NCBI GenBank assembly: GCA_003139095.1
Contig: PLHW01000025.1
Coordinates: 62,389-101,534, forward strand
Direction of reading: 5' to 3'
DNA: 39,146 bases
Source of the DNA: Acidobacteriaceae bacterium
GTDB lineage: Bacteria; Acidobacteriota; Terriglobia; Terriglobales; Acidobacteriaceae
Shown here piece after piece: positions 5,773-29,172 of this stretch; the first letter of the stretch is position 1; every line of letters begins with the position of its first letter. The notes beneath the pieces are model-generated. The model saw only the letters and a list, made by a program, of their open reading frames with translations, was not told where the DNA came from and made no database searches. The position numbers and the translations under genes were made by a program.

Positions 5773-5774
5773 TT

Positions 5775-8767: not shown

Positions 8768-8773
8768 CCGGAG

Positions 8774-9285: not shown

Positions 9286-9499
9286 ACCTATTGAATAATA
9301 AATACGTTACCGGAAATGCCTGCAAGTCAAAAGAATAGACCCAATCTTCCGTCCCTAAGCCGTTGAATAATAAATACTTTACAAGTACATCCCCAAACAA
9401 CCCTCCTAAGTCATTGAAAGATAAATACTTTACACCTAACTCCTTATTCCTCAAAGACCTGGCGGTTTTTACCTCCTAAGTCTTTGACTCCAAAAGACC
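9286..9499. repeat. Degenerate intergenic repeat array (CCTAAGTCATTGAA...AATACTTTAC type)
   Basis: Copies lie at 9286-9310, 9354-9382 and 9405-9433, with core TTGAAtAATAAATACkTTAC. Two more degenerate copies begin CCTAACTCC (9435-9459) and CCTAAGTCTTTGACTCC (9475-9499). Start-to-start distances are about 67, 51, 30 and 40 bp and the intervening sequence is unrelated. On the minus strand each copy ends in a purine-rich CTTAGGAGG-like stretch. The array fills the spacer between the divergent DUF1801 and aminotransferase-fold genes. Confidence 0.75.
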
Positions 9500-9613
9500 G
9501 AGCCAGAGGGGGTCTCCGCCACTCGCGGATCAACTCGCCCCAAACTCCGCCGAACGCGATTACCGCAACATTCCACCCCAATCGCACTCGCAGCGTTACA
9601 ATGTCCCTTCCTT

Positions 9614-10948: not shown

Positions 10949-11424
10949 GTTGACTCCAAAAAAAGTAAGTTGGCTCCAAGAGTAGGTGTCATCCTAAGAG
11001 TGTGTGACTTTCTTTGATGTCATCCTGAGCGCAGCAGGTGGACTCGCGAATGCGAGTCCACCCGCGGAGTCGAAGGACCCCTACGCGCCAGATCTCACCC
11101 CATCCGCCTCAGGGGATTCTCCCCGTCCACTCGACCGCTTCGCCCTCCCAGTTCCCCAAACCCTTGTCATTCCGAGCCCGAGCGAAGCGAGTGGACGAGG
11201 AATCTCATGCTCCCGGATAGCCTGATCGCTGAGTTCGTCCCATGTGAAGGCTTCGGCGCTTTGGAGTTTAAACTAAGCTGTCATCGACGACTCTGGTGTG
11301 GGCGGGAGGATTCCGGGCGATCGCGGCGGGGGCTCTGCTACGACGCGGCGGGGGAGCATGAGATTCCTCCCTTTGGTCGGAATGACAAGAGCGAAGAACT
11401 GACATCTGGCAACTGACAACTGCC
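10949..11424. other. Repeat-rich intergenic region without a gene
   Basis: The region starts with a 20-bp-scale duplication of AAGTAAGTTGRCTCCAA (10944-10980) that begins within the upstream stop codon. A block reading GTCATCCTGAGCG (11018-11032) is followed by the perfect hairpin GGTGGACTCGC-gaat-GCGAGTCCACC (11037-11062) and then GGAGTCGAAGGACCC. Finally an inverted pair of GTCATTCCGA...GAGGAATCTCATGC elements spans 11166-11214 and 11351-11386. These are known types of dispersed bacterial intergenic repeat. Short open frames here read through the repeats and are not supported as genes. Confidence 0.7.
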
Positions 11425-12783: not shown

Positions 12784-12827
12784 ACGATTCTCAAAAATAC
12801 GATTCTTAAAAATACGATTCTGAAAAG
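12772..12827 (-). repeat. 15-bp tandem repeat carrying the ffh start codon
   Basis: Read on the minus strand, units of the form CGTATTTTTNAGAAT occupy 12787-12801 and 12802-12816, with a partial unit at 12817-12827. The unit nearest the gene (12772-12786, CGTATGTTTGAAAAT) contains the ffh ATG and its first codons. The repeat therefore forms the immediate 5' leader, where the ribosome-binding site should be. Confidence 0.75.
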
Positions 12828-12925
12828 TGACGACGAGCCCCTATTTTAGCAGTCCGCTTCGGCAAACCTCCCGCCCATCCCTTCGGCGGTACAATAAACG
12901 CGACCTTCCAAGCCAGAGGAATTTT

Positions 12926-14719
12926 GTGATTGCCCGAGCCCGCACGGCTCTTCTTGCGCTCCTCGTCTGCGCCTGCCTCGAATCTCCCTCCGTCGCGCAA
13001 TCCACCGTGATGGCCGCGCCAAATCAAGCCGCCGCGCCGAATGCGGCCGCGAACCCTGCCGCGCCGAATGCCGCTGCAACTCCCAAGGCCACCGTTGGCC
13101 GAATCGACGTTCGCGCCCAGTCCGACCGCGTCACCATCTCCATCGCCATCACCGCCCCCATCGTCCCCACTTCTGACCGCGTCTCCAATCCCGATCGCCT
13201 CGTCTTCGACTTCCCCGAATCCATCCTCAAAGGTGCCAACCGCCAAATCCCCGTGAACCACGGCCCCGTCAAGGGTCTCCGCCTCTCGCTCTTTAGCGTC
13301 CACCCGCCAATCACGCGCCTCGTCGTCGACCTCGCGCAGCCGCTCGATTTCCACCTCACCACCACCGACCACGAATTAGTAATCGACCTTCTATTCTCGA
13401 AAGCCGGCGCATCTGCTGCGCCCACTCCCGCCTCGCCAGCGATTGACGCATCCGCAACTCCGCCGTCGCCGCAACCCGCGCCCGAAGCCCCGCCCGCAGC
13501 CAACTCCGAACCTCAGCCCAAACCAGCCCCCCGCCCGAACACTCCCGGCGCTTACGCTCTATTGGCCCAAGCCAAATCGTTGACCGTCGATGCCCTCCAA
13601 TCCCTCGAGGACAAATCCGCCGCCGGCGATCCCGAATCCCAAACCCTCCTCGCCCTCGCCTACCACTCCGGTGTCCTGCTCAAGCAAGACGACGCCGAAG
13701 CCCTCCGCCTCCTCCGCCTCGCCGCCGACCGCAACTACCTCGCCGCCGAGGAGTCTCTCGGCATCTTCTCCCAAACCGGAGTCGGCCAACCGCCCTCGCC
13801 CGCCGACGCGCTCCGCTGGTACACCCTCGCCGCCGACCACGGCTCCCCTGACGCCGCCACCGATCTCGCCCTGATGTACGTCAACGGCAAGGGCGTTGAC
13901 CGCGACGTCCCCAAAGCCATCGCCTGGTTTCGCCGCGCCGCCGAGGCCGGCGACTCCTCCGCCCAGTACAACCTCGCGCTCATGTACGAGCGCGGCGAAG
14001 GCCTTCCCCAGGATTATGCCCAGGCCATTCGGTGGCTCACCGCTGCCGCCGATGCCGGCCTCGTTCCCGCCATGCTCGATCTCGCCGAAACTTATTTTCA
14101 GCCTCCCTCTGCCTCCATTCCCAAAGACGTCCTGCACGCCGTCCACTATTTTCAAAAGGCCGCCGAACTTGGCAGCGCTCCCGCCCAAGTCAATCTCGGC
14201 ACAATTTATGCCAAAGGCCTGCAAGGCAAAGTCGATTTCGCCGAGGCCGTCAAGTGGTATCAAAAAGCCGCCGATCAGGGTGACCGCGACGCCGAGTGCG
14301 CCCTCGGTGTCAGCTATGCGCTCGGCGAGGGCGTCCCCGTCGACTACGATCAGGCCCGCCGCTGGCTCACTTCCGCCGCCGACCAGGGACAGGCCCAGGC
14401 CCAGTTCGATCTCGCCATGATGTTCGAAGAGGGCAAAGGCTCTCCCACCGCGCCCGATCTCGCCGCCCACTACTACGCGCTCGCCGCCGAGCAGGGCCTG
14501 CCCCGCGCCCAACTCAAGCTTGGCTCCATGCTCGCCCGCAACAAGGACTCCCGCGCCGACCGCATCGCCGCCTACAAGTGGCTCATGCTTGCCCAGGATT
14601 CGCTCAAAGAGCCCTCGCCCGCCTTCGCCGATCTGCGCAAATTAATGGATGCGAAAGAAATCGAAGAAGCCAGCCAACAAGTCGATAACTGGCGCCTGAC
14701 CCACCCCAAACGCCCCTAG
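12926..14719 (+). CDS. Exported AMIN-domain and Sel1-repeat protein
   Basis: This is a 597-aa protein from a GTG start at 12926 with AGAGGA at 12915-12920. A signal peptide (RARTALLALLVCACLESPSVAQS) leads to an Ala/Pro-rich linker and an AMIN-like beta domain (about residues 58-125: VGRIDVRAQSDRVTISI...HPPITRLVVDLAQPLDFHL), which in other proteins binds peptidoglycan or targets the periplasm. A second Pro-rich linker follows. The rest is a run of about nine Sel1/TPR-like repeats of the form A..G...AQ..LA.MY..G.G...D. A scaffolding or envelope-assembly role is likely. The partner is unknown. It diverges from ffh. Confidence 0.85.
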   Translation: MIARARTALLALLVCACLESPSVAQSTVMAAPNQAAAPNAAANPAAPNAAATPKATVGRIDVRAQSDRVTISIAITAPIVPTSDRVSNPDRLVFDFPESILKGANRQIPVNHGPVKGLRLSLFSVHPPITRLVVDLAQPLDFHLTTTDHELVIDLLFSKAGASAAPTPASPAIDASATPPSPQPAPEAPPAANSEPQPKPAPRPNTPGAYALLAQAKSLTVDALQSLEDKSAAGDPESQTLLALAYHSGVLLKQDDAEALRLLRLAADRNYLAAEESLGIFSQTGVGQPPSPADALRWYTLAADHGSPDAATDLALMYVNGKGVDRDVPKAIAWFRRAAEAGDSSAQYNLALMYERGEGLPQDYAQAIRWLTAAADAGLVPAMLDLAETYFQPPSASIPKDVLHAVHYFQKAAELGSAPAQVNLGTIYAKGLQGKVDFAEAVKWYQKAADQGDRDAECALGVSYALGEGVPVDYDQARRWLTSAADQGQAQAQFDLAMMFEEGKGSPTAPDLAAHYYALAAEQGLPRAQLKLGSMLARNKDSRADRIAAYKWLMLAQDSLKEPSPAFADLRKLMDAKEIEEASQQVDNWRLTHPKRP

Positions 14720-14835
14720 CTACGCTAGTAGCCTATGGTGTAAGTCTGGATGCGTGAGCGGAAAATGCTGAACGAATCCACAGACTCATGAGTGGAGCGC
14801 GCGAATCGCTCACCGGGCCCGACAAGTCCGGCAGT

Positions 14836-15534
14836 CTAGATCCGTTTGATTGTCGCGAACCAGGCCGGTGCACCGTGGTCATCGTGGAATCTCGTCCGAA
14901 TGCGGTCCGGTTCGATTGCGGCGACATTCCAACCATTGCTGGGGCTGAATGCCGCTCTCAGCTCATCCCGAAGGATGGGGTGCGGGCCAGTATCGCGACC
15001 ATCGTCACTGAAGCACAACACATACAGGGTTCCATCGTGCTGGGTCACCGACGCTAGACTCGCAACGTATCGCATTCGCTCGTCGCCGTCGAAGGTGTGG
15101 AACAGTCCGCAGTCCAGCACCGTCTCAAACATGCGCCCCAGACGCTCCAACTGGAAGGCGTCAGCCGCAGCGAACTCAACCTCGATCCCACGGTCGGCGG
15201 CTTTCTGTCGGGCCATCGCCAGTGCCGTTTCGGCCACGTCAACGCCCAGAACCGACAATCCCAGGGAGGCGACGTGAAGAGTGTTTTCGCCGGTCCCGCA
15301 GCCCGCATCGAGCACCGCTCCGGCGAATCCACCTTCGGATGCCAAACGCACTACTGCGGGCTGCGGCTGGCCAATATCCCAAGGCGCCGGGCCGTCGTGG
15401 TACGACGCATCCCAAGGCAATCCCGACAGCCGTTCGTGACTGGTCGGGTGCCGACCACTGAACGGATCGTCAGCAAAATTTCCTGATCGCTCCGACAACT
15501 TCGTTCCCTCCTGCAACCGATCTTCCCACCTCAT
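14836..15534 (-). CDS. Class I SAM-dependent methyltransferase
   Basis: This 232-aa protein has the methyltransferase glycine-rich motif VLDAGCGTGENTLHVA (about residues 73-88), the acidic residue in VLGVDVAETALAMA, and the AADAFQLERLGRMFETVLDCGLFH region that forms motifs II-III. Upstream of the core is PWDASYHDGPAPWDIGQPQP, seen in TehB/thiopurine-type small-molecule methyltransferases. The acceptor substrate is not evident. The ATG at 15534 has only a weak purine stretch upstream, and initiation a little further in cannot be excluded. It is followed by a 116-bp spacer before the convergent Sel1-repeat gene and sits upstream-to-downstream with the deacetylase-family gene on the same strand. 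Confidence 0.82.
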   Translation of the reverse strand: MRWEDRLQEGTKLSERSGNFADDPFSGRHPTSHERLSGLPWDASYHDGPAPWDIGQPQPAVVRLASEGGFAGAVLDAGCGTGENTLHVASLGLSVLGVDVAETALAMARQKAADRGIEVEFAAADAFQLERLGRMFETVLDCGLFHTFDGDERMRYVASLASVTQHDGTLYVLCFSDDGRDTGPHPILRDELRAAFSPSNGWNVAAIEPDRIRTRFHDDHGAPAWFATIKRI

Positions 15535-15563
15535 CGTTGCACGCCAACCCAGCTAAATGAATT

Positions 15564-15619
15564 GAAAATTACGAAATCCCAAAATTTCCCAATTACCCAA
15601 TTACAAAATTACAAATTAG
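15564..15619. repeat. Array with 8-bp period (CMMAATTA type)
   Basis: Seven consecutive 8-mers can be read: GAAAATTA, CGAAATCC, CAAAATTT, CCCAATTA, CCCAATTA, CAAAATTA, CAAATTAG. The array lies between two minus-strand genes and ends 12 bases before the stop codon of the deacetylase-family gene. Confidence 0.7.
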
Positions 15620-15631
15620 ACTCCTCGTCCC

Positions 15632-16615
15632 CTACTTCCCAAACACTTCCTTCGCCGCAATCACCGTATTTGCGTGGATCGTCACCGTATCCTCCAGCCT
15701 GTGCGCATACCCGCCCGCAAACGTCACCATCACCGGAATCCCCTCTGCCTTCGCCAGCCGGAATACCAGCTCATCCCTCTGCTTCAACCCCTCAATCGTC
15801 AGCGCCAGCCCACCCAGTTGGTCGTCATAATAAGGATCCGCTCCCGCCACATAGCAAAGCAGCTCCGGCCTGAATCTCTGCAAGCCCATGCTGAACGCGC
15901 TCCCCAAACACGCCAGATATTCGCCATCGCCCATCCCATCCGGCAAATTCATATCGAGCGACGACGGCGGCTTGAACGCCGGATAGTTATTTTCCTGGTG
16001 CAATGAAATCGTGAACACATCCGTCTGCGTCCGTCGCGTCCGCCCCATCTCAATCGGATTCTGCGCCCCCGCCACGACCCCCACGCGATTGCCCGGCGCC
16101 GCCGGCGCAAAAATCACCGCCGTCCCGTTACCCTGATGCACATCGCAGTCCAGCGTCATCGCCGTCCGGATCTTCTCGTCCCTTTGCATCCGCCGGATGG
16201 CCACCGCAATATCGTTAATCATGCAGAAGCCTTCTCCGTGATCCGGAAACGCATGATGGAATCCGCCCCCAATGCTGATCGCCACTCCATCGTTCAGCGC
16301 ATAATCCGCCGCCAGCATCGACCCGCCCGCCGCCAGCCAATATGCCCGCACCAGGTCCGCAGAGTACGGCACCTCCATCTCCAGTTCCTCGCGCGCGCTC
16401 AGCGTCCCCGTTTTCAGTTTGTGTACATACTGCGGCGTATGCACCAGCAGAATGTCCTCGTCGCTGGCCGCCCGCGGAGACACAAAGTCCGACGCGTCCG
16501 CCACCTTCAGCGTCACCAGCCGGTCGTGCACCGCTTTATATTTCTCGCCTGGAAAAACGTGAGACCCGATCGGCAGGAAGTAGTCGTCGCTGTAAATTAA
16601 TTTGAAAGGCAGCAT
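15632..16615 (-). CDS. Histone deacetylase-family (AcuC-like) hydrolase
   Basis: This 327-aa metal-dependent amidohydrolase belongs to the arginase/deacetylase fold. The catalytic core is complete: GGGFHHAFPDHGEGFCMINDIAVA holds the tandem histidines, TLDCDVHQGNGTA gives the Asp-His zinc ligands, and AGADPYYDDQLGG gives the second Asp. TFAGGYAHRLEDTV ends the active site. Bacterial relatives deacetylate acetyl-CoA synthetase (AcuC), polyamines or other small acyl-amines. The neighbourhood gives no acs gene, so the substrate is open. The start gives MLPFKLIYSDDYFLPIGSHVFPGEKY, the usual opening of this family. Confidence 0.9.
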   Translation of the reverse strand: MLPFKLIYSDDYFLPIGSHVFPGEKYKAVHDRLVTLKVADASDFVSPRAASDEDILLVHTPQYVHKLKTGTLSAREELEMEVPYSADLVRAYWLAAGGSMLAADYALNDGVAISIGGGFHHAFPDHGEGFCMINDIAVAIRRMQRDEKIRTAMTLDCDVHQGNGTAVIFAPAAPGNRVGVVAGAQNPIEMGRTRRTQTDVFTISLHQENNYPAFKPPSSLDMNLPDGMGDGEYLACLGSAFSMGLQRFRPELLCYVAGADPYYDDQLGGLALTIEGLKQRDELVFRLAKAEGIPVMVTFAGGYAHRLEDTVTIHANTVIAAKEVFGK

Positions 16616-16682
16616 GCGGCATTCGAACGCGAAAACCCCATATCATACGCGTCCTCGCCCCTTTTGGCAGGAATCCCCATCA

Positions 16683-16739
16683 CCCGAGCTCCGTAGCGCC
16701 GGCTTCTCGCCGGCTGTCGCGGGGCGTCCTCGCCCCCGC
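16683..16739. repeat. REP-like palindromes upstream of polA
   Basis: GCCGGC-ttctc-GCCGGC (about 16699-16715) is followed by GCGGGGCG (16719-16726) and CGCCCCCGC (16731-16739) around TCCT. The second stem shares GGGCGTCCYCGCCC with 8751-8764. They lie in the 261-bp divergent spacer between the deacetylase-family gene and polA. A second dispersed element, CTCCGCGCCCTCCGCG (about 16818-16845), follows and recurs in inverted, degenerate form near 24580-24615. Confidence 0.6.
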
Positions 16740-16876
16740 ATCCATTGTAAGGTTGCGTTTTGTGCGACGTTAGGTTGCGGCTTTCGCTCATACCTCACAG
16801 TCCCAAAAAAATCTCCGCGCCCTCCGCGCCCTCCGCGTTCAAACCTCCGGCCCCGCAAGCTGCTAAACTGACCCCA

Positions 16877-19729
16877 TTGCCGCCCAAAAAGAAATCCCCG
16901 CCGGCTTCCCCCGCCGTTGAGCCCACCCCGACTCAGCCCGCCCCCGGCCGCATCTTCCTCATTGACACCATGTCCTTCATCTTCCGCGCCTATCACGCCA
17001 TGGCGCGCCAGCGGCCGATGTCCACCAAAACCGGACTCCCCACCGCTGCCATCTTCGTCTTCGTCAACATGCTCCGCAAACTCCGCGACGACTTTTCCCC
17101 CGAGTACCTCGCCGCCATCTTCGATGTCGGCGCCCCCACCATCCGCAACCAGCAGGCCGAGGCCATCACCACCATCCGCAAGTTCGACCTCAAGACCCAG
17201 TCTTTCAAAGAAGAGCAATACCAGGGCTACAAGGCCAACCGCTCCGAAATGCCGCCCGACCTCGTCCAGCAGGTCCCCTACATCCGCCGCGCCCTCGAAG
17301 CCTATCGCATTCCCATCCTCCAGCTCGAAGGCTACGAGGCCGACGATGTCATCGGCACCCTCGCCCGCAAAGCCGCCGCCACCGCGCACACCGTCTTCAT
17401 CGTCTCCAGCGACAAGGACATGCTGCAACTCGTCGGCGACAAAGTCTCCGTCCTCAATCCGCCCAAAGACAATCTCATCTGCGATGCCGCCAAAGTCGAG
17501 GAACTCCTCGGCGTCCCTCCCTCCCGCGTCGTCGATGTCATGGCCCTCCGCGGCGACTCCATCGACAACATTCCCGGCGCGCCCGGCATCGGCGACAAAG
17601 GTTCCGTCGAACTTATCCGCCGCTTCGGCTCCGTCGAGCAGGCCCTCGACCGCGCCGCCGAAGTCGAAAAGAAAACCTATCGCGAATCGCTCCTCAACAA
17701 TCGCGACAACATTCTTCTCAGCAAACAGCTTGTCACCATCGAAACCGAGCTCCCCGTCGATCTCGACGTCGCCTCCATGAAAATCGGCGATCCCGACGTC
17801 GGGGCCCTCCGCGCCCTCTTCGCCGAGTTGGAGTTCAGTTCGCTGCTGAAGGAAGTGCTTCCCGTGGTCGAAGTCAAAGAAGGCCACTATCGCGAAATCG
17901 ATTCGCAAGAAGATTTAGAAGAATATTTGCAGAGTGCATCGCCCGCCGCCCCATTAGTAGTAGCCATCTCCGCCGGCGACGCGTCCTCCTCACCGCAACA
18001 GACAGAAGAAGAAGACCAAGCCGAGCCCGAGCCCGAACAGTCCGGCCTCCTCGATCTCCGCCCCCCCTCTTCAGAATCCGAAGCCGCCCAGGCCGGCGCC
18101 CCAAATGCCGTGCCCCGCGCCCAACTCGCTCTCTCCAAGTCCCCCGGCGAAGGCGCCACCCTCCAACTCGATCCCTCTCCCGGCGCCGACTTGCTCTCCG
18201 CCCGCCTCAAACAATTCCTCGAAAATCCCGCCGCCCCCAAAACCGTCTACGACTCCAAAGCCGCCCTTCACCACTTCTCATCCCTCGGCATCCATCTCGC
18301 CGGCGTCCAGCACGATCCCATGCTCTACTCCTATCTCCTCGATCCCACTTACTCCTCGCATTCCCTCCCCGAAGTCGCGCTCCGCCGCCTCAATCTCAAG
18401 CTCAGCGGCAATCTCGCCGAGGCCGCCGACGTCACCGGCCGCCTCGCCGCCGCTCTCCGCCATGAGGTCGACAACCAGCAACTAACTCCCGTCTATGACC
18501 AGATCGATGTCCCCTTAGTCCCCGTCTTAGTCCGCATGGAAGATGCCGGCGTAAGAATCGACCGCGCCGTCCTCGCTGAAATGTCCATCAAACTCCAGCG
18601 CGAAGCCGACGCCAAGGCCCGCGATATCTATGCCCGTTGCAATTTCCAGTTCAATATCAACTCGCCCAAGCAACTCGGCGACGTTCTCTTCAACAAACTC
18701 GGCCTCCCCATCCCCATCAAATACGGCAAAGGTAAAAAAATCTCCACCGCCGTCGATGTCCTCGAAGGCCTCGCCGAAGAGCACGAAGTCCCCCGCCTCG
18801 TCCTCGAATACCGCCAGCTTACTAAGCTTAAGTCCACTTACGTCGACGCCCTCCCCGCCCTTATTCACCCTGACACCGGCCGCGTCCACACCACCTTCGG
18901 ACAGACCGGCACCGCTACCGGCCGCCTTTCCTCCACCAATCCCAACTTACAAAACATTCCCATCCGCACCGAACTCGGCCGCGAAATCCGCGCTGCCTTC
19001 ATCGCCGAGCCCGGCAACCTCCTCCTCGCCGCCGACTACTCCCAAATCGAACTCCGCCTCCTCGCCCATTTCTCCCGCGACCCGCTCCTCGTCGAGGCCT
19101 TCCGCCGCGGCGACGACATCCACACCCTCACCGCCTCCCAGGTTTTCGGCGTCCCGCCGCTCATGGTCACCGCCGACCACCGCCGCCAGGCCAAGGCCGT
19201 CAACTTCGGCATCGTCTACGGACTCTCCGCGTTCGGCCTTTCCCAGCAACTCGGCATCGAGCCCTCCGACGCCAAGAAATTTATCGAAGCCTATTTCGAA
19301 AAGTATGCTGGCGTCCGCGCCTTCATCGACGCCACCTTAGCCGATGCCCGCCGCGAACAAAAAGTCCGTACCCTCTTCGGCCGCATCCGTCCCATCCCCG
19401 ACATCAACAGCCACAACGCCAATCAACGAGGATTCGCCGAGCGCACCGCCGTCAACACCCCGCTGCAAGGCACCGCTGCCGACCTGATCAAGTTAGCCAT
19501 GATCCGCATAGACGAAGAAATCCGCACCCGTAAGTTGAAAGCCCGCATGACCTTGCAGGTCCACGACGAGTTAGTCTTCGAACTCCCCGAAAACGAAGTA
19601 GAAGAACTAAAGCAGTTGGTAAGACAACAAATGGAATCCGCTCCAGCCCAAATGCAATCCACCCAGGAGTTAAGAGTCCCCCTAAGCGTAGAGTTAGGAA
19701 TAGGCCCCAACTGGCGCGACCTCAACTAA
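16877..19729 (+). CDS. polA: DNA polymerase I, proofreading domain degenerate
   Basis: This is a repair and Okazaki-processing polymerase of about 950 aa. The N-terminal 5'-3' exonuclease is intact (FLIDTMSFIFRAYHAM, GYEADDVIGTLA, SSDKDMLQLV, GAPGIGDKGSVELI). The polymerase has motif A DYSQIELR (Asp at 720), motif B RRQAKAVNFGIVYG (Lys at 773) and motif C VHDE (Asp at 897). The middle 3'-5' exonuclease-like domain lacks a recognisable DxE motif. It has ADVT preceded by Ala where E. coli has the catalytic Asp501, so it is probably inactive. A 60-residue acidic/Pro-rich linker (EEEDQAEPEPEQ...) interrupts it. I chose TTG at 16877 because the frame further upstream to 16760 translates a dispersed repeat. 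The start is uncertain. Confidence 0.9.
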   Translation: MPPKKKSPPASPAVEPTPTQPAPGRIFLIDTMSFIFRAYHAMARQRPMSTKTGLPTAAIFVFVNMLRKLRDDFSPEYLAAIFDVGAPTIRNQQAEAITTIRKFDLKTQSFKEEQYQGYKANRSEMPPDLVQQVPYIRRALEAYRIPILQLEGYEADDVIGTLARKAAATAHTVFIVSSDKDMLQLVGDKVSVLNPPKDNLICDAAKVEELLGVPPSRVVDVMALRGDSIDNIPGAPGIGDKGSVELIRRFGSVEQALDRAAEVEKKTYRESLLNNRDNILLSKQLVTIETELPVDLDVASMKIGDPDVGALRALFAELEFSSLLKEVLPVVEVKEGHYREIDSQEDLEEYLQSASPAAPLVVAISAGDASSSPQQTEEEDQAEPEPEQSGLLDLRPPSSESEAAQAGAPNAVPRAQLALSKSPGEGATLQLDPSPGADLLSARLKQFLENPAAPKTVYDSKAALHHFSSLGIHLAGVQHDPMLYSYLLDPTYSSHSLPEVALRRLNLKLSGNLAEAADVTGRLAAALRHEVDNQQLTPVYDQIDVPLVPVLVRMEDAGVRIDRAVLAEMSIKLQREADAKARDIYARCNFQFNINSPKQLGDVLFNKLGLPIPIKYGKGKKISTAVDVLEGLAEEHEVPRLVLEYRQLTKLKSTYVDALPALIHPDTGRVHTTFGQTGTATGRLSSTNPNLQNIPIRTELGREIRAAFIAEPGNLLLAADYSQIELRLLAHFSRDPLLVEAFRRGDDIHTLTASQVFGVPPLMVTADHRRQAKAVNFGIVYGLSAFGLSQQLGIEPSDAKKFIEAYFEKYAGVRAFIDATLADARREQKVRTLFGRIRPIPDINSHNANQRGFAERTAVNTPLQGTAADLIKLAMIRIDEEIRTRKLKARMTLQVHDELVFELPENEVEELKQLVRQQMESAPAQMQSTQELRVPLSVELGIGPNWRDLN

Positions 19730-19737
19730 CTAGCGTG

Positions 19738-19753
19738 TGTTCCACGTGGAACG
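19738..19753. promoter_or_regulatory. parS: parS-like ParB-binding palindrome
   Basis: TGTTCCACGTGGAACG matches the ParB box TGTTNCACGTGNAACA at all positions but the last, and its 14-bp core is a perfect palindrome. A C/G fifth pair, as here, occurs in well-studied parS sites such as those of pseudomonads. It lies just after the polA stop, between convergent polA and clpB, about 0.3-0.4 kb from a GC-skew sign switch. No parAB genes are in the window. Confidence 0.6.
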
Positions 19754-19754
19754 C

Positions 19755-19772
19755 TCTCCCCGAGAGGGGAGA
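19755..19772. terminator. Hairpin between convergent polA and clpB
   Basis: TCTCCCC (19755-19761) and GGGGAGA (19766-19772) form a 7-bp stem with a GAGA loop, ending at the base next to the clpB stop codon. Position between two convergent genes suggests a shared transcription end. There is no T-run. Confidence 0.45.
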
Positions 19773-22433
19773 CTACTTGCGGGCGCGGGCAGGCGGACTT
19801 TTTGCGGGTAGAGCGGGCTCGCCCACCCGCTCGCTGACCTTAAAGGACATCTTCCCAGCCTCGGCGTCTACGATCAGGTGGTCCCCATGCAGCACCTCCC
19901 CGTCCAGGATCTTCAGCGCCAGGGGGTCTTGCACTAATTTCTGGATCGACCTCTTAAGCGGCCGCGCCCCAAAATTTGGGTCGTAGCCGGCGGTGAAGAG
20001 AAGTTCCTTGGCCGAGTCGGTCAGCTCCAAAGAAATCTTCCGATCGGCGAGCAGCCGCCGCAAATCTTCCAGCCGCAGCTCCACTATCTTCACGAGCTGT
20101 TCTTTCCCTAGCGGACGGAAGATGATGATGTCGTCGACGCGGTTGAGGAACTCGGGCTTGAAGTGTCCGTGCAGCGTGTTCATCACCTGCTTCGAGGCCT
20201 CCTCAAAATCCCGCGCGGAGAGCGGCGTTTGGCTTTGCAGGAAAGAAGACCCCAGGTTCGACGTCATGATGATGACCGTGTTTTTGAAATCGACGGTGCG
20301 GCCTTTGCCGTCGGTGAGGCGGCCGTCGTCCATGATCTGGAGGAGGACGTTGAAGACGTCGGGATGCGCCTTTTCGATTTCGTCGAAGAGGACGACGGCG
20401 TAGGGACGGCGGCGCACTTGTTCGGTGAGTTGACCGCCTTCTTCGTATCCGACGTAGCCGGGAGGGGCGCCGATGAGGCGCGAGACGGCGTGCTTCTCCA
20501 TGTATTCGGACATGTCGATGCGCAGCATGGCGCGCTCATCGTCAAAAAGAAATTCAGCCAAAGCCCGCGCCAGTTCGGTCTTTCCGACGCCCGTGGGGCC
20601 GAGGAAAATAAAAGAGCCGATCGGGCGCTTCGGATCGCTCAGTCCGGCGCGCGAGCGGCGGATGGCGTTCGCGACACGCTCGAGCGCTTCGTCCTGGCCG
20701 ATGACGCGCAGGCGGGGACGGTCTTCCATGTTGATTAACTTTTTGACTTCGCCTTCGAGCATCTTGGAAACAGGAATGCCGGTCCACTTGGAGACGATGC
20801 GTGCGACATCTTCTTCATCGACTTCTTCCTTCAGCATGCGCGTCGCGCCGCTCTTGCCATCCATCTGCGCAGTGATCTTTTTCAAGTCTTCCTCGGTCTG
20901 GCGAATGAGGCCGTAGCGGATTTGCGCCACGCGTTCGAGATTGCCTTTGCGCTCTTCGGCCTGCTCTTCGAGTTTGAGCTGCTCGAGTTTTTCCTTGAGA
21001 GCGCGCGCCTTGGCGATGACATCCTTCTCGAGTTTCCATTTCGCTTTGAGCGCGTTCGACTTCTCGCGAATTTCGGCCAGCTCCTTTTCGACGAGTGCGA
21101 GGCGTTCGCGCGAGCTGCGGTCATCTTCTTTCTTGAGCGCCTGCTTTTCGATTTCGAGTTGCGTGGCGCGGCGTTCCAGTTGATCGATCTCGGTGGGCAT
21201 GGAGTCGATCTGGATGCGCAGCGAGGCAGCCGCTTCGTCGATGAGATCGATGGCCTTGTCGGGCAGGAAGCGGTCGGAGATATAACGATGCGACAAGGTC
21301 GCAGCGGCGACGATCGCGGAGTCTTTAATGCGGACGCCGTGATGGACTTCGTATCTTTCTTTGAGGCCGCGGAGAATGGCGATGGTGTCTTCGACGTTGG
21401 GCTCGCCGACGAAAACGATCTGGAAGCGGCGTTCGAGCGCAGCATCTTTCTCGATGTACTTGCGATATTCGTTGAGCGTGGTGGCGCCGATGGCGCGCAG
21501 TTCGCCGCGGGCTAGCGCGGGCTTGAGCATGTTGGAAGCGTCGATTGCGCCTTCAGCCGCGCCTGCCCCGACGAGCGTGTGGAGTTCGTCGATGAAGAGG
21601 ACGATCTGGCCCTGCGCGTCTCCGATTTCTTTGAGCACTGCTTTAAGACGATCTTCGAATTCGCCGCGATATTTCGCGCCGGCAAGCATGGCTCCGAGGT
21701 CGAGCGAGACGACGCGCTTGTTCTTCAGCGCTTCGGGCACATCGCCCGAAATGATGCGCTGGGCAAGGCCTTCGACGATGGCGGTCTTGCCGACTCCGGG
21801 CTCGCCGATGAGCACGGGATTATTTTTGGTGCGGCGCGAGAGAACCTGGATGACGCGGCGAATTTCTTCGTCGCGCCCGATGACGGGATCGAGTTTGCCG
21901 CGGCGCGCCTGCTCGGTGAGGTCGCGGGCGTAACGCTCGAGCGCCTGATATTTGCCTTCGGGATTCTGATCGGTGATGCGCTGCGATCCGCGAACGGAGG
22001 TCAGTGCCTTGAGAATGGCATCGTGGGTTGCTCCGTGGCGCGCGAGGAGTTCCTGCGCCGCGTCACGTTTCAGGCTTGTGATCGCGAGCAGCAGGTGCTC
22101 GGTGGAAACGTATTCGTCTTTGAAGGAGTCAGCTTGCTTGAAAGAATTTTCCAGAAGCTGATTAACCTGCGACGACATGGTGGCCTGTTTGGTGCCGCTG
22201 CCGGAGACCTTGGGGAGCTTTTCGATCTGCTGGTATATCTCGGCGAGGACGGCTTGCGGGCCGATGCCGATTTTTTCGAGGACGGGGACGACGATACCTT
22301 CTTTGTCCTCAACGAGAGCGGCTAGAAGATGGATGGGAAGAAGCTCCGGGTTGCCATGCTCGGAGGCGAGGTCGTTGGCGCGCTGTACGGCTTCCTGGGC
22401 TTTGACTGTGAATTTTTCCCAACGGATGGGCAT
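19773..22433 (-). CDS. clpB: ATP-dependent disaggregase ClpB
   Basis: This 886-aa AAA+ chaperone threads aggregated proteins through its ring together with DnaK. The Clp N domain (1-150) is followed by AAA-1 with Walker A GEPGVGKT and Walker B LFIDELH. Next is a long coiled-coil M domain (about 400-530, [24 protein letters not shown]...) that sets ClpB apart from ClpA and ClpC. AAA-2 has [19 protein letters not shown] and the sensor-2 GARPLKR motif. The aromatic pore motifs KYRGEFE and GYVGYEEGG are present. The ATG at 22431-22433 has AAGGAG eight bases upstream. It follows hsp20 on the same strand after a 222-bp repeat-filled gap, so the two heat-shock genes probably act together. Confidence 0.97.
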
Positions 22434-22469
22434 GGATTAACTCCTTGTGCTACTCAAAGCGTAGCGGGA

Positions 22470-22546
22470 TTTTGTAATTTTGTAATCGGGTAATTGGGAG
22501 CACAAGCTCGCGATTCTTAGAATTGCCCGATTGCGAAATTGCAAAA
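22470..22546. repeat. 8-bp-period array folded into a long inverted repeat
   Basis: Arm 1 (22470-22495) has 8-mers TTTTGTAA, TTTTGTAA, TCGGGTAA. Arm 2 (22521-22546) has ATTGCCCG, ATTGCGAA, ATTGCAAA. The arms are inverted copies matching at 22 of 26 positions around a 25-base loop. All four differences are T against C, so a plus-strand RNA would still pair through G-U wobbles. It lies 37 bp upstream of the clpB start. Confidence 0.7.
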
Positions 22547-22587
22547 TAAAACGGGAGACGGATACTGCTCCGCCCCCCGCTAACTCC

Positions 22588-22639
22588 GGGCTAAAGCCCT
22601 GAATCATTGGTTGCCCAGCGGCGCGGCTGAAGCCGCGCC
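22588..22639. repeat. REP-like palindromes between hsp20 and clpB
   Basis: GGGCTAAAGCCC (22588-22599) is followed by GGCGCGGCT-ga-AGCCGCGCC (22620-22639). This GGCTGAAGCC-centred type is common in acidobacterial spacers. The second stem lies 17 bp after the hsp20 stop codon and could protect or end the hsp20 message. Confidence 0.6.
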
Positions 22640-22655
22640 CTTTCAAAGCCAACCC

Positions 22656-23168
22656 TTACGCAGCTTTGCCTTCGGTCTTGGACTCGCTCTTGGGCTGTTT
22701 GCTTTCGAGCGTCTTGGATCCGCCTACGTTGACTTTGATCTGCTTCGGTTTGGCTTCGGCCTTCTTGGCCAGCTTTACCTTGAGCACGCCCTTGTCGTAG
22801 TCGGCCTGGACGCTTTCGGTGTCGATCGTCGTCGGGAGAGTGAAGGTGCGAGTGAAACTGCCGTACTGGCGCTCGACCCGGCGATAGTTCTCTTCTTTCT
22901 CTTCCTGCTCGAACTTGCGCTCGCCGTGGACGGTGAGCGTGTTGTTCTCGATGCGGACGTCGATGTCCTTCTCGTCGATGCCCGGGACTTCGATCTTCAG
23001 AGTCACGTTGTGCTCGTCTTCGTAGACGTCGACGGGGGGCGCGAAGGCGGTGGTGGTCAGGGATTCATCCTGCCCTTCCGGCCCGCGAGGGTCGCGGAAC
23101 AGACGGTTCATGCGGTCTTGCAGGGTGACAAACTCACGGAACGGATCGTAACGGGTAAGAAACGTCAT
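22656..23168 (-). CDS. Hsp20/alpha-crystallin small heat-shock protein
   Basis: This 170-aa holdase binds unfolding proteins. After the N-terminal arm (TRYDPFREFVTLQDRMNRLF) comes a complete alpha-crystallin domain (about residues 43-142): PPVDVYEDEHNVTLKIEVPGIDEKDIDVRIENNTLTVHGERK, then SFTRTFTLPTTIDTESVQADYDKGVLKVKLAK. The C-terminal extension is unusually long, Lys/Glu/Ser-rich (about 25 residues), and contains QIKVNV in place of a classic IxI motif. The ATG at 23166-23168 has AGGAGG upstream. A consensus promoter and a leader hairpin precede it. It lies upstream of clpB in the same direction. Confidence 0.95.
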   Translation of the reverse strand: MTFLTRYDPFREFVTLQDRMNRLFRDPRGPEGQDESLTTTAFAPPVDVYEDEHNVTLKIEVPGIDEKDIDVRIENNTLTVHGERKFEQEEKEENYRRVERQYGSFTRTFTLPTTIDTESVQADYDKGVLKVKLAKKAEAKPKQIKVNVGGSKTLESKQPKSESKTEGKAA

Positions 23169-23201
23169 AACTTAATCCTCCTAAAGCTGGGAAACTCTGA
23201 T

Positions 23202-23219
23202 GGGAGCACGATTGCTCCC
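23202..23219 (-). promoter_or_regulatory. Hairpin in the hsp20 leader
   Basis: GGGAGCA (23202-23208) and TGCTCCC (23213-23219) form a perfect 7-bp stem with a 4-base loop, in the predicted leader between the promoter and the AGGAGG of hsp20. It does not resemble the CIRCE operator. It could stabilise the mRNA or act in heat control. Confidence 0.5.
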
Positions 23220-23242
23220 GCGCTGTTCATTAGCGTAAGCAC

Positions 23243-23271
23243 ATAATAAAACATGAGCGTACTATTGTCAA
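23243..23271 (-). promoter_or_regulatory. Consensus sigma-70 promoter for hsp20
   Basis: On the minus strand TTGACA (23271-23266) is followed after exactly 17 bases by TATTAT (23248-23243). This is a perfect -35 and a near-perfect -10. Transcription would begin near 23236, giving a leader of about 68 bases. The promoter lies in the spacer after the RlmI-like gene. Confidence 0.75.
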
Positions 23272-23292
23272 GTATAAATAAAATATTGTTTT

Positions 23293-24519
23293 TCAATGAC
23301 TTACATGAGACATCAGACATTTTAGATAGCTGGTTTCTGGGACGTTCAGGAGGATGGGATGGTCTTGGGCGGCTCCCCGGCTTTCGAGAATGCGCAAGGA
23401 TTTGTGGGCGTCTAGGGCGGCGCTGGCTACCGTTTGGAGGAAATCGGCGGCGCTGACGTGGAACGAGCAGGAGCACGTAATAAGGATGCCGCCGGGCCTG
23501 AGCATTTTCAGAGCGCGCAGATTGAGTTCTTTGTAGCCGCTGAGAGCTTTGTGGAGGTCGCGACGAGTTTTGGCGAAGGCGGGCGGGTCGAGGACGACGG
23601 TGTCGTACTTTTTTCCGGCGGCGGCGTAGTCGCGGAGAAGGTCGAAGGCGTTGGCTTCGATCCACTCGATCTCGCGCTGGTTGAGCGCGGTGTTTTTGTC
23701 GGCGACCTCGAGGGCGGGACGGGAGCTGTCGACTCCGGTGACGGCGGAGCAGCGCGGGGCGAGGTGGAGGGCGAAGCCTCCGTGATAGCAGAAGACGTCG
23801 AGGGCGTCGCCGTGGGCGTAGCGGGCGGCGGCAGCGTAATTCTCGCGCTGGTCGAGGAAGGCTCCGGTTTTTTGGCCTTCGAGGGCGTCGTAGTGGAAGC
23901 GGACGCCGCTTTCGAGGTGCGTATTCATGGTGATGACGGTGGAACTTTTGTTGCCCCAAAGAAGAGCAGAGTCGCGCGGCGGGAGTTGTTCGAGATCGCG
24001 GATGCGGGGATCGACGCGATCGAGGATGCCGGCGGGATGGAGTTCTGCGATAAGCGTCTCGATGATGGCACCGCGGACGGGCTCGGCGTCCATGGCCTGG
24101 GTGAGGATTTGGAGGGAGAGGACGTCGTTGTAGCGGTCGACGATGAGGCCGGCGAGGAAGTCGGCTTCGGAGAAGACGAGGCGGCAGGCGTCGGTATGGG
24201 CGACGAGAGGTTTGCGGTAGGCGAGGGCGGCGCGGATGCGGTCGGAGATGAGCTGCGGGAGGTCGGTTACCTCTTCGCGCGCGATCATGCGGATGGCGAT
24301 TTGCGAGGACGAAGAGTAGAGAGCGGTGCCGAGGAATTTGCCGCGCGGGTCGAGAACGCGGACGGTGGCGCCGGGCGGGACGCCGTCCGCGGCGGAAATG
24401 TCAGAGCGGTAGACCCAGGGGTGTCCGGATTTGAGGCGGGCCGCGCCGCGGGAGGAAAGGGTTACGGCGGGGAGCGTTGATTTCTCTGGCGTCTTGGACG
24501 TGGGAGAGGATTTCGGCAT
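23293..24519 (-). CDS. RlmI-like class I SAM-dependent rRNA methyltransferase
   Basis: This 408-aa protein has an N-terminal PUA domain (about residues 20-95: SRGAARLKSGHPWVYRSDI...GTALYSSSSQIAIRMI), an EEHD-like middle part and a Rossmann methyltransferase. It shows TGAFLDQRENYAAAA, DVFCYHGGFALHLA, TGVDSSRPALEVA, the NPPY-like VLDPPAFAK and CSCSF, whose Cys is the likely nucleophile. E. coli RlmI makes m5C1962 in 23S rRNA, so this enzyme probably does the same or a close variant. It begins with a Ser/Thr/Pro-rich tail. It precedes hsp20, but hsp20 has its own promoter. Confidence 0.9.
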   Translation of the reverse strand: MPKSSPTSKTPEKSTLPAVTLSSRGAARLKSGHPWVYRSDISAADGVPPGATVRVLDPRGKFLGTALYSSSSQIAIRMIAREEVTDLPQLISDRIRAALAYRKPLVAHTDACRLVFSEADFLAGLIVDRYNDVLSLQILTQAMDAEPVRGAIIETLIAELHPAGILDRVDPRIRDLEQLPPRDSALLWGNKSSTVITMNTHLESGVRFHYDALEGQKTGAFLDQRENYAAAARYAHGDALDVFCYHGGFALHLAPRCSAVTGVDSSRPALEVADKNTALNQREIEWIEANAFDLLRDYAAAGKKYDTVVLDPPAFAKTRRDLHKALSGYKELNLRALKMLRPGGILITCSCSFHVSAADFLQTVASAALDAHKSLRILESRGAAQDHPILLNVPETSYLKCLMSHVSH

Positions 24520-24572
24520 GAGGGAATGTTACATCGTGTCTTTCGGCGCGAGGTCGAAGTCAAAATCAAAAA

Positions 24573-24620
24573 GCTTGAACCGCAGAGGACGCAGAGGAAA
24601 AGAGAGAACGCGGAGAAGAA
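24573..24620. repeat. Dispersed GCAGAGG-type repeat
   Basis: TTGAACCGCAGAGGACGCAG and the following GAACGCGGAGAAG form an imperfect tandem of a GCRGAGG motif. An inverted, better-preserved relative (CCTCCGCGCCCTCCGCG) lies near 16818-16845. It occupies the 153-bp spacer between the RlmI-like and aminotransferase genes. Confidence 0.5.
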
Positions 24621-24672
24621 CGTGGCGGCGCGGCCGTCTTGCTGCGTCAGGGTTAAATCCGTGAGAAGTTGA

Positions 24673-25869
24673 TCAGCCTCGCATTGGCAGCTCGCCGTTC
24701 CTTCTGCGCGGGGAGCGCGCGGGCGACAGGCTCGCAGTTACGGCGCCGGTCATTACTTTTTTCAGGGCGGTTTGGAACTGATCCATCTCAGGCGCGGTGC
24801 CGATGGTGATGCGGACGTGGGTAGGCCAGACAGGCCAGATGCGTCCGATGTGCACATTTTGTTTGGCCATGGCTTCGATCATTTCTTTGCCGGGGCGCTT
24901 GGCATCGAGCATGAAGCAGTTCGATTCGGAGGGGATGTAGGAGTAGCCGTTGCGGTCAAGCCAGGCGAAGACGCTGGCGCGGATTTCGGCGTTGATGCGT
25001 TTGCGCTCGGGGACGAGCTGCGGGTCGCGGAGGCTGGCGGCGGCGGCGGCGAGCGCGGTGACGGGCATGAAGTTCCAGCCGCCGTAGTTCTGAATTTTTT
25101 CGATGAGGGCGGGCTTGCCGAAAACGGCTCCGCAGCGCAGGCCGGCCATGCCGTAAATTTTGGAGAAGGTGCGGAGGACGAGGACGTCTTTGTCGGCCTT
25201 GACCAGGTCGAGGGCGGTGGCGGCGTCGGAGAAATGGATGTAGGCTTCGTCGACCATGACGATGGAATCTTTGGGCTGGTGGGCGACGAGGTACTCGATA
25301 TCGGAATGGCTGGTGACGGTGCCTGTGGGATTGTTGGGACTGCAAACGTAGAAGAGGCCAGCGTCGGGGGCGGCGGCGAGCATGGCGCGGACGTCGTGGG
25401 AGTAATCCTTGGCGAGCGGGACTTTGATGACGCGGGCGCCGATGGCTTCGGCGGCGAACATGCCGGCCTCGTAACCGGGATCGGCGGTGACATAGGGGCG
25501 GTGAGGGGAAGCGAAGGCGGCGACGGCGTGATGCAGGGGCTCGCTGGAGCCGGCGTAGATGCAGGCGTATTCGGGTTTGAGGCCGAGGGATTCGGCGAAC
25601 TGATTGGTGAAGTCTTCGCTGAGCCAGAAGGAGTAGCGGCCGCCTTGCGGGGCCATGTCGATGACGGCTTGGCGGGCGGCGGCGGAGGGACCGAGGGGAT
25701 TCTCGTTGGAGTCGATCATGACGCCGTCGTGGCTGTGGGGATGGCGAATGGCGGCGGCATGGGCGAGCATGGGCTCGGTGACGATGCGAAGGGCGAAGGC
25801 GGCGGAGGTGGCGGCAGAAAGGCCGAGAAAAGAACGACGAGATGCGGAGACGATGGGGCTGCGGAGCAT
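24673..25869 (-). CDS. Tat-exported HisC-like PLP aminotransferase
   Basis: This 398-aa class I/II aminotransferase resembles histidinol-phosphate aminotransferase. It shows SNENPLGPS (54-62), CSPNNPTGTVT (176-186), MVDEAYIHF with Asp207, the PLP lysine K237 in RTFSKIYGMAGLR, and the phosphate-binding-type Arg in VRITIGT. Unusually for a HisC relative it begins with a twin-arginine signal (SRRSFLGLSAATSAAFALR, residues 10-28), which implies export of the folded, PLP-loaded enzyme. No histidine genes are nearby. A periplasmic amino-acid or amine transaminase is the best reading, with substrate unknown. Similar Tat-tagged HisC-like proteins exist in other soil bacteria. Confidence 0.88.
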   Translation of the reverse strand: MLRSPIVSASRRSFLGLSAATSAAFALRIVTEPMLAHAAAIRHPHSHDGVMIDSNENPLGPSAAARQAVIDMAPQGGRYSFWLSEDFTNQFAESLGLKPEYACIYAGSSEPLHHAVAAFASPHRPYVTADPGYEAGMFAAEAIGARVIKVPLAKDYSHDVRAMLAAAPDAGLFYVCSPNNPTGTVTSHSDIEYLVAHQPKDSIVMVDEAYIHFSDAATALDLVKADKDVLVLRTFSKIYGMAGLRCGAVFGKPALIEKIQNYGGWNFMPVTALAAAAASLRDPQLVPERKRINAEIRASVFAWLDRNGYSYIPSESNCFMLDAKRPGKEMIEAMAKQNVHIGRIWPVWPTHVRITIGTAPEMDQFQTALKKVMTGAVTASLSPARSPRRRNGELPMRG

Positions 25870-25900
25870 GGCTCACCTCACGAGGACATCTTAGCGCATT

Positions 25901-27784
25901 TCATTCCGTGAGGAGGCGGTGGGCGATGGCTTGATCGTCGGCGAGGTTGGGGGCTAGGGTTGCGGCTTGGGATTGGGCGGCGCGGGCGGCTTCGGTTTGG
26001 CCGGCTTGTTCGAGGGCCTGGGCGAGCAGCAGATAGTTGAGGGCGGAAGGTTCGAACTGCGCGGCTTGCTGGTAGTTGCGGATGGCGGCGGCGAGATCGC
26101 CACCTCTTTGCTTCGCTAGCGCGAGGCCGCGATAGGCGGCGGCGTTCGCTGGCTGGGATTGCAAGATGGCGGCGAAATCCTTCTGGGCATTTTCGTATTG
26201 CTTGAGCGACATGTGGGCGTAGCCGCTGTTGATGCGGGCTTGCTCGATCAGCGAGGCGTTCCTGGAGATGAGCGGAATTCTGGAGTAGCCCGAGAGGGCG
26301 GCCTGGTAGTTTCCGCGCATCTGGTCGTAGGTGGAGAGGTTGAGCGTGGCCATGGCGTCATCGGGGGCGAAGGAGAGGGCGCGGCGGACATGGGACATGG
26401 CTTCGTCGATTTTTCCTTCGGCGATTAGGGCGCCGGCAAGGTTGTCTTCGGCGGTGTAGTTGCGCTCGGTGATGGAGAGGGTATGGGTCCAGAGGGTGAC
26501 GTCATCGGACCAGAAGGCGATTTGGCGGGAGAGCAAGAGAGCGAGTGCGAGTAGCACCGCGGCAGAAGCCGCGAGGGGCGCCCATTTGGGGACGCGCCAC
26601 CGGGCGGCTAGATCGGCGGCGCCCCAGCAGACGATGACGAAAATTCCAAGCAGCGGGATGTAGGCGTAGCGATCGGCCATGGAGTGAACGCTGATCTGGA
26701 TGAGGCCGATCATGGGAACGAGCGTGCCGAGGAACCAGAACCAGCCAACGAAAAACGGACGGTGGCGGCGGAAGACGAGCGCGAAGATCGAGATGGCGAT
26801 GAGCGCGGCGGCCGAGGCGATGGCCGCGGCAATGTTGATGGACGCGCCGGGATGCGGATAGATGGGGGCGAGATGAACGGGCCAAAAAGCTTTCTCAAGA
26901 TATTTGACGTAGGCCGCAGAGGCATTGGCGAGGCGGAGCGAGAAAGGAAGCCGGGCCTGCGTGGCGGCGGCTTCGACCTTCATGGTGATGATGGCGCTGG
27001 CGGCGGAGAGCGCGAGCCAGGGCGCTTTTTCCCATAGCAAGCCGAGGAACGATTTCGCCTGTGCATCCGTGTGGCCGCGATTTGCGGCTGCCGCATCCGC
27101 GGGCGCGAGGCGGTGCAGCGGCCAATAATCAAGCAGCAGGAGCGCGAAGGGGAATGTGATGACCTGGGCCTTGCTCATGAGCGCGAGAGCGTAGGCGGCG
27201 GTCACGGTCAAATACCGTGCGAGGCCAGGGCGGCGCGCGTACCAGCCGTATGCGGCGAGCGCGAGAAAAAAGAAAAAAGTGCTGAGGACATCTTTTCGCT
27301 CGGAGATCCAGGCGACCGATTCGACGTTGATGGGATGCAAAGCGAAGAGGGCGGCGACGGCAAAGCTGCGCCAGAGCAATTGCGTTGCGCTCGCCAGGAT
27401 GAGAAAGAGGAGAGCGGCGTTGATGGCGTGCAGCAGCAGATTGACAGTGTGCGGGCCTTCGGGACTCAGGCCGAAGAGTTGGCAGTCGAGCGCGTGCGAC
27501 AGCCAGGTGATGGGATGCCAATCGGCGGTTTCCGAAGAGCGGAATGCCCAGATCACCGTGCTCCAGGTGAGGCCGGTGCGGACGTGAGGATTGTCGGCGA
27601 CGTGGAGGGCGTCGTCATAGTTGAGGAACGGCGCGCGCGTGATGGGACTGTAAAGCGCGAGCGTGGCCGCGACCAGCAGCAGGCAGAGGGTGAGTTTTTG
27701 TTTGGCGGGATTGCGGAAAAATTGCGAGTCAGCCGGATTTTGATTGGAGGTGGTTTCGGCGGAGGCCATCGGCTCAACGAGCAT
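25901..27784 (-). CDS. TMTC-like multi-pass membrane protein with C-terminal TPRs
   Basis: This 627-aa protein has about ten membrane helices (residues 31-470) and then TPR repeats (about 490-615: NLAGALIAEGKIDEAMSHVRRAL, NSGYAHMSLKQYENAQKDFAAIL, AAYRGLALAKQRGGDLAAAIRNYQ). The first loop holds NYDDALHVADNPHV with D57-D58, then DWHPITWLSHALDCQLFG and GPHTVNLLLHAINAALLF. These are typical of the bacterial relatives of TMTC proteins, a GT-C glycosyltransferase-like group. A lipid-sugar-dependent glycosyltransferase is therefore plausible but unproven. The start ATG overlaps the upstream stop as TGATG, which implies translational coupling to the zinc-ribbon gene. A second ATG five codons in is possible. 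Confidence 0.85.
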   Translation of the reverse strand: MLVEPMASAETTSNQNPADSQFFRNPAKQKLTLCLLLVAATLALYSPITRAPFLNYDDALHVADNPHVRTGLTWSTVIWAFRSSETADWHPITWLSHALDCQLFGLSPEGPHTVNLLLHAINAALLFLILASATQLLWRSFAVAALFALHPINVESVAWISERKDVLSTFFFFLALAAYGWYARRPGLARYLTVTAAYALALMSKAQVITFPFALLLLDYWPLHRLAPADAAAANRGHTDAQAKSFLGLLWEKAPWLALSAASAIITMKVEAAATQARLPFSLRLANASAAYVKYLEKAFWPVHLAPIYPHPGASINIAAAIASAAALIAISIFALVFRRHRPFFVGWFWFLGTLVPMIGLIQISVHSMADRYAYIPLLGIFVIVCWGAADLAARWRVPKWAPLAASAAVLLALALLLSRQIAFWSDDVTLWTHTLSITERNYTAEDNLAGALIAEGKIDEAMSHVRRALSFAPDDAMATLNLSTYDQMRGNYQAALSGYSRIPLISRNASLIEQARINSGYAHMSLKQYENAQKDFAAILQSQPANAAAYRGLALAKQRGGDLAAAIRNYQQAAQFEPSALNYLLLAQALEQAGQTEAARAAQSQAATLAPNLADDQAIAHRLLTE

Positions 27785-28920: not shown

Positions 28921-29172
28921 CGGTAAGAATGGTCACCTATTGATTTTAGCATGTGGAAAATGCCGGGTTGCGGGGAGGTGAGGAAATGATGTAACCGCGG
29001 GGAACATGGATGGAGTGACGGCGCGACGTTTGGGGATGATGGGGTTGGGGGCGCGCGCGGCAGTTTGGATGACGAATGGAGTTGGCGGGAGTTTCACTGT
29101 GGTGTGAGTCTCGCTGTGGTAGGCTGCGAGGTTCGGCCGCTCGTTGTTAAGTTCTTCTTGTGGAGGTTTCAG

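Follow-up and report, generated by a model that had tools for sequence, protein, structure and literature searches.

Dispersed parS sites as very probable centers of local strand asymmetry in a genus of Acidobacteriaceae

The DNA analyzed here (the window) is a stretch of 39,146 nucleotides from an Acidobacteriaceae bacterium, comprising bases 62,389–101,534 of contig PLHW01000025.1 (C46) up to the contig's right end at 101,534, and its own genome (G000) is a 5.53 Mb draft in 75 contigs. It contains a parS-like palindrome beside an abrupt flip in GC skew, and comparison with the other parS-like loci of this genome and its relatives indicates that dispersed parS sites are very probably centers of local, outward strand asymmetry. 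The parS sites lie, throughout this genus and weakly in a sister genus, at the center of domains of tens of kb in which the strand reading 5′ to 3′ outward from the site has more G than C. The steps in skew coincide with parS, share one polarity and are independent of gene direction, and the skew is reversed in orthologs that lie across parS from one another. Strand composition is a standard locator of bacterial replication origins and parS is taken as a marker of the origin region; in this lineage the two signals occur together at many places.

The flip in the window is sharp. Plus-strand GC skew is below zero in all 20 of the 1-kb bins covering positions 1–20,000 (−0.105 to −0.384) and above zero in all 19 covering positions 20,001–39,000 (+0.044 to +0.332). 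The best change-point for all bases is at 20,111 (likelihood interval 20,088–20,124; gain of 482 log units versus no change), and that for third codon positions in 18 Pfam-matched genes is at 20,118 (20,094–20,121; gain 784), within the 3′ end of clpB and ∼350 bp from the palindrome. At fourfold sites, Pfam-matched genes on both strands have plus-strand skews of −0.50 to −0.83 to the left and +0.36 to +0.83 to the right. The gene finder is incomplete (e.g. 14836–15534 and 25901–28054 were missed), and an exception to the left of the flip is an open reading frame at 7137–8270 (minus strand, called by the gene finder, without a Pfam test) at +0.10. The C-rich stretch continues leftward on C46 to about 28 kb, ∼54 kb to the left of parS. 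The features concerned are as follows.

1..20087, no strand: left part, where the plus strand is rich in C whichever strand a gene is on (1-kb skew and fourfold skew)
16760..19729, plus strand: polA (DNA polymerase I), plus-strand fourfold skew −0.83 (445 C, 42 G)
19738..19753, no strand: parS-like palindrome TGTTCCACGTGGAACG, the sole match to TGTTYCACGTGRAACA at up to three mismatches in the window (0.34 expected)
19773..22433, minus strand: clpB, plus-strand fourfold skew +0.41
20088..20124, no strand: skew change-point, minus to plus, in the 3′ end of clpB (likelihood change-point)
20125..39146, no strand: right part, where the plus strand is rich in G whichever strand a gene is on, to the contig end (1-kb skew and fourfold skew)

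A first-pass annotation of the window, made from ten rows counted by hand, had described a plus strand that is C-rich on the left and G-rich on the right regardless of gene strand, with a switch of origin-type polarity in the 3′ part of clpB near a parS-like site. All ten counts prove exact on recounting, the 1-kb bins and the fourfold skew bear out the description, the third-codon-position check it proposed gives the same flip, and the change-point falls in the part of clpB named; the site is real, and the polarity is minus to plus. The annotation also saw no DnaA-box cluster, in agreement with the 24 DnaA-box-like words in the window versus 26.4 expected, which is no enrichment.

The 16-mer TGTTYCACGTGRAACA is given as the parS of Myxococcus xanthus in a table of PMC7022226, and the window palindrome is identical to it and thus matches the parS consensus. 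The genes polA and clpB converge here, and the palindrome sits in the 43 bp that separate their 3′ ends. The genome as a whole has 13 perfect 14-mer cores and 24 parS-like sites with at most one mismatch, and these form 13 loci on 13 contigs when copies up to 700 bp apart are counted as one; a reversed 15-mer control has no matches at up to one mismatch, and at two mismatches the reversed control is high (17 versus 42). The locus on contig C25 is of the classical origin type, with six parS-like sites at 188.4–188.8 kb followed by parA at 188,867 (read from its sequence) and a ParB match at 190,784 (1.6e-49), such that cognate chromosomal ParA and ParB are encoded beside parS copies; the gene directly to the left of this cluster is presumably related to rsmG. 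Across the C25 cluster fourfold skew rises from roughly −0.7 on the left to +0.6 to +0.8 on the right, although individual genes on either side stay close to zero (−0.05, +0.10). The dnaA gene is on C10, a contig on which no parS-like site with at most one mismatch was found, and genes encoding ParB, Smc and ScpA are present in the genome. With sites on 13 contigs, the usual, although not absolute, rule that parS lies near the replication origin does not hold here.

At all 12 parS loci with an intact CACGTG core, GC skew rises from the left flank to the right one, whether the flanks are 10 or 5 kb long (one flank is short at C17 and C71); the thirteenth locus, C7:37,501, was not counted because its one mismatch breaks the core, and its 5-kb flanks are both negative (−0.228 and −0.150; step +0.075). 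The mean step over the 12 loci is 0.245 with 5-kb flanks, and that of the window is the largest (0.411). The controls, from the 1.48 Mb surveyed, have no such step: the mean is −0.004 to −0.017, depending on gap type, for 373 gene gaps separated from parS by 30 kb or more, and 0.006 for 20,000 random positions, and in each of three randomization tests the observed mean was reached by 0 of 100,000 draws. On six contigs the step peaks no more than 0.4 kb from parS, and on a seventh it does so within 0.9 kb. There is no step at the 159 other CACGTG words (mean −0.006) or at the 55 three-mismatch words (mean +0.014), and three two-mismatch words have steps of +0.052, −0.021 and −0.062.

Exact palindromes number 2–19 per genome in 24 genomes of the genus, including G000. 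Of 77 genomes from elsewhere in the class, 71 have 0–5 and the remaining six have more (12–15 in G028, G037, G040 and G046, 6 in G079 and 8 in G094). We compared loci from three congeners, G011 (all 17), G012 (three of at least five) and G015 (all five), and from a member of a sister genus, G040, whose complete genome is one contig (all eight). With 5-kb flanks there is an upward step at every one of these (G011 17/17, G012 3/3, G015 5/5, G040 8/8). Together with the 12 of G000, all 45 loci of the five genomes step up, although these are partly dependent, some being orthologous across species (C20 with G015 C10; L181 with L185). With 10-kb flanks the counts are 17/17, 3/3, 5/5 and 7/8, respectively; one flank is short at two G011 loci (L168 and L184). 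The parS sites of G040 extend up to 1.37 Mb away from its parS cluster. The recurrence of the flip at parS loci of relatives also excludes an inversion in a single strain, and upholds the view of the first-pass annotation that it is not a simple misassembly; misassembly or a chimeric bin is ruled out because five genomes have the pattern, among them the single-contig G040, and so does a named record, palsa_125 (L029; step +0.103). G054, which has one parS, shows no upward step there, in a thin sample of 15 pieces of 5 kb that gave no clear layout.

The asymmetry does not follow the direction of genes. Within 2.5 kb of parS the outward strand is G-rich in genes reading towards and in genes reading away from the site (0.47 and 0.29 in G000, 0.27 and 0.21 in G011), and the outward coding fraction over this distance is 0.15 in G000, 0.25 in G011 (mostly convergent) and 0.67 in G015. 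A gene-direction effect is ruled out, as both gene strands carry the skew and convergent gene gaps without parS have no step. Fourfold skew near the G000 loci reaches about 0.8–0.9, and outward G-richness persists to ∼30 kb and is mixed farther out. The origin cluster of G015 (C12:104.6 kb) has a fourfold skew of about 0.4–0.5 in most bins within 40 kb; to its right the skew is still about +0.4 at 60–80 kb and then within ∼0.2 of zero, and to its left it is near zero from ∼60 to 85 kb, with a further C-rich stretch in the first 15 kb of the contig. Because the G015 skew fades within ∼100 kb of the cluster, it is mainly local rather than arm-wide.

Orthologous genes provide a further comparison, for which we selected, from 139 reciprocal best pairs, those whose copies both lie within 25 kb of parS and have at least 50 fourfold sites. 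Eighteen of the selected pairs are opposed in their relation to parS; the copy that is outward carries more G skew in 16 of them, and the mean difference is 0.72; several of these pairs come from one block and are not all independent. Both exceptions involve G040, without which the counts are 14 of 14 and the mean 0.87. The 31 pairs with the same relation to parS differ by a mean absolute skew of 0.27. The block to the left of the window's parS illustrates the reversal, and includes, in addition to polA, the following genes.

11425..12783, minus strand: ffh (SRP54), left of polA, in the block 11425..16615
15632..16615, minus strand: histone-deacetylase-domain gene, left of polA, in the same block

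The order and orientation of ffh, the deacetylase-domain gene and polA are kept in G012 (L186), and those of ffh and polA in palsa_125, with parS in both at the opposite end of the block. At fourfold sites of the block, plus-strand skew ranges from −0.50 to −0.83 in G000 and is positive in G012 (+0.30 to +0.58) and palsa_125 (+0.50 to +0.64).

Steps in skew also occur away from parS. The first-pass annotation had proposed a whole-genome skew check, and this was feasible for the surveyed 1.48 Mb, or 27% of the draft, where there are 22 up-steps of at least 0.2. Of these, seven have a parS no more than 1 kb away, an eighth, on C17, is borderline at 2.4 kb, and 14 are without parS; none of the eight down-steps has a parS. 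Because the surveyed DNA was picked to contain all of the parS loci, the parS share of up-steps is not a genome-wide rate. A search for decayed parS sites at 12 of the unmarked up-steps found best matches with 3–5 mismatches within 2.5 kb, the same as at random places, and one such match, near C10:117.67 kb, is inside a gene. One G011 parS (L183) has a left flank whose G000 ortholog is the left flank at C10:116.5 kb, a place without parS. The last gene on the left there nonetheless has a skew of −0.91; either parS is therefore not required for every step, or the skew outlasts the loss of the site, and that at C10:115–117 kb (L019) is possibly the memory of a lost site. Between 60 and 237 kb on C25 (L164–L166, L023–L027, L167) we observe alternating blocks of strong fourfold skew, ∼20–30 kb in length, with sharp edges and several without parS; these are likely to be rearrangement scars or lost centers.

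Most dispersed parS sites in the genus are accompanied by AT-rich words of the GTACRTA/TACATAT type within 60 bp (15 of 16 in G011, 7 of 11 in G000, 2 of 3 in G012 and 3 of 4 in G015, the G000 and G011 sites being also those used to select the words), often ∼20 bp to one side as judged by eye, and the same words occur in 5 of 327 control gaps. They are absent from four origin clusters, from the seven dispersed G040 sites and from the window's own parS site. No cluster of at least three such words was found within 7 kb of the unmarked up-steps, in a test that recovers only 2 of the 11 dispersed parS sites of G000. One-mismatch DnaA boxes at parS loci are at 1.5 to 3.9 times the background of their own genome, in AT-rich gaps. 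No sign of a mobile element around parS was seen, flank matches between non-orthologous loci being no longer than about 106 bp among the matches listed.

We infer that ParB binds at these sites and that the asymmetry is of mutational origin. The explanation we prefer, while giving it somewhat less than an even chance, is that replication starts are dispersed at or near many parS sites. Forks would start or restart at or near these sites and proceed outward both ways; the outward strand would be the leading strand close to each site and become enriched in G, and fork direction would average out away from the sites, leaving the skew local. The pattern is symmetric about parS and strand-specific outward, and therefore fits outward forks. 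A passage of PMC3459929 describes yeast replication origins as marked by fading upward skew jumps. More tentatively still, the chromosome might have a eukaryote-like layout in a bacterium, with many natural replication starts, each with a parS, and no fixed fork direction elsewhere.

Several observations weigh against dispersed replication starts. With 10-kb flanks the step amounts to a change of sign at only 10 of the 12 G000 loci, and similarly incompletely in the relatives (G011 13/17, G012 3/3, G015 3/5, G040 5/8). The smallest G000 steps (C71, C47, C31 and C45) are 0.05–0.12, and those of G040 are weak (mean 0.066 with 5-kb flanks), its genes that read outward having almost no skew (−0.08 to +0.14). 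Genes near parS sites are not oriented outward. The window offers just the 43-bp gap for an origin, and no DnaA-box cluster was found at parS loci in the five genomes, where exact boxes number 2 in 26.4 kb (0.4 expected). Forks from the G015 cluster would leave little trace farther out, so that many starts would be needed, and the 14 up-steps without parS and the strong C10 skew have to be accommodated as well.

The main alternative, somewhat unlikely in our view, is a centromere effect without initiation, in which ParB clamps and Smc-ScpAB travelling outward from parS would bias the strands, for example through exposure or repair. It makes parS itself the common factor, in a window with hardly any space for another, and the genes required are present; outward movement would be symmetric about parS, and skew is local even at the G015 origin cluster. 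An excerpt of PMC5098823 puts the spread of ParB around parS in Pseudomonas aeruginosa at over 20 kb, and a section of PMC3459929 argues that the skew jump at Candida albicans centromeres is non-replicative because it fades too fast (∼3 kb), an argument that would hold here to a lesser degree. The up-steps lacking parS are hard to reconcile with this alternative, as are domains of more than 50 kb (C46 left), beyond the cited reach of ParB. Also counting against it, we know of no case in which ParB or Smc biases mutation by strand. The same unmarked up-steps would be expected if parS were a follower, gained or kept at existing up-steps, with the skew set by other elements (replication starts or the AT-rich companion module), as would the strong left skew on C10, where the orthologous G011 DNA flanks a parS, and the companion motif beside dispersed parS in the genus. 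We regard this as unlikely, since the largest step, that of the window, lacks the companion motif, as do all seven dispersed G040 sites, and no companion cluster marks the other up-steps, although that test catches few true sites.

It is improbable that the genome has one ordinary origin and that the flips are scars of inversions and other rearrangements. Gene order is indeed strongly scrambled between species, the C25 blocks have sharp edges of both polarities, and the parS-free steps go both up (14) and down (8). However, inversions yield as many up-steps as down-steps, yet parS is at 7 of 22 of the former and 0 of 8 of the latter, and all 45 loci step upward with 5-kb flanks. Least probable by far is that the window is the single chromosomal replication origin, as the first-pass annotation had proposed in calling it a candidate origin region. 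Its polarity and parS-like site stand, and its flip is sharp, of origin type and the largest of 12. But it is one of 13 parS-like loci, and the classical locus on C25 shows the same flip, so the window is not a unique origin; eleven other loci are alike, including the parS cluster before parA and parB, and in G012 and palsa_125 parS is at the block's other end. Nor are the usual oriC neighbors found at the window, where the neighbors are polA and clpB, with dnaA on C10 and parAB on C25; dnaN was not searched for.

The components of this pattern are familiar, and parS, ParABS and origin skew are all already known. The system resembles chromosomal ParABS in its palindrome, published in the table of PMC7022226, and in having parA and a ParB match beside a parS cluster, but differs in that the sites are spread, in the complete relative G040 over more than a megabase from the cluster, and each marks a skew step. 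It resembles a bacterial oriC with arm-wide skew in its minus-to-plus polarity independent of gene direction, but has many centers per genome, each of local reach, and no DnaA-box cluster. The closest known counterpart is the centromere skew of Candida albicans, where, according to PMC3459929, an upward jump fades on both sides, as at yeast origins, and opinion is divided on whether an origin or the centromere causes it; here the organism is a bacterium, the jump is at parS, extends over tens of kb rather than ∼3 kb, and is strong at fourfold codon sites. An open-access search, outside which most subscription journals and preprints lie, found no report of skew steps at dispersed bacterial parS, and the recurrence of the pattern in five genomes is our reason for rating skew centers at dispersed parS as new for bacteria. 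It implies either many replication starts in a bacterium or centromere machinery that writes strand asymmetry; either would be new, and either outcome bears on the yeast centromere-skew dispute. Caution is warranted with skew-based origin calls or assembly checks in these soil bacteria.

We also note that C28 (1–220 kb, L148–L158), a contig without a parS-like site at up to one mismatch, has skew near zero followed by a G-rich stretch. The closest named relatives of the window's PolA in our scan are from Acidobacteriaceae and Terriglobales metagenome assemblies (bog_202, palsa_125 and a Terriglobales bin), with 74–76% identity. A record titled Bifidobacterium breve (L048, CALQBJ020000065.1) encodes a PolA that is 41% identical and falls among Gemmatimonadota and Chloroflexota matches, and its title may be a mislabel.
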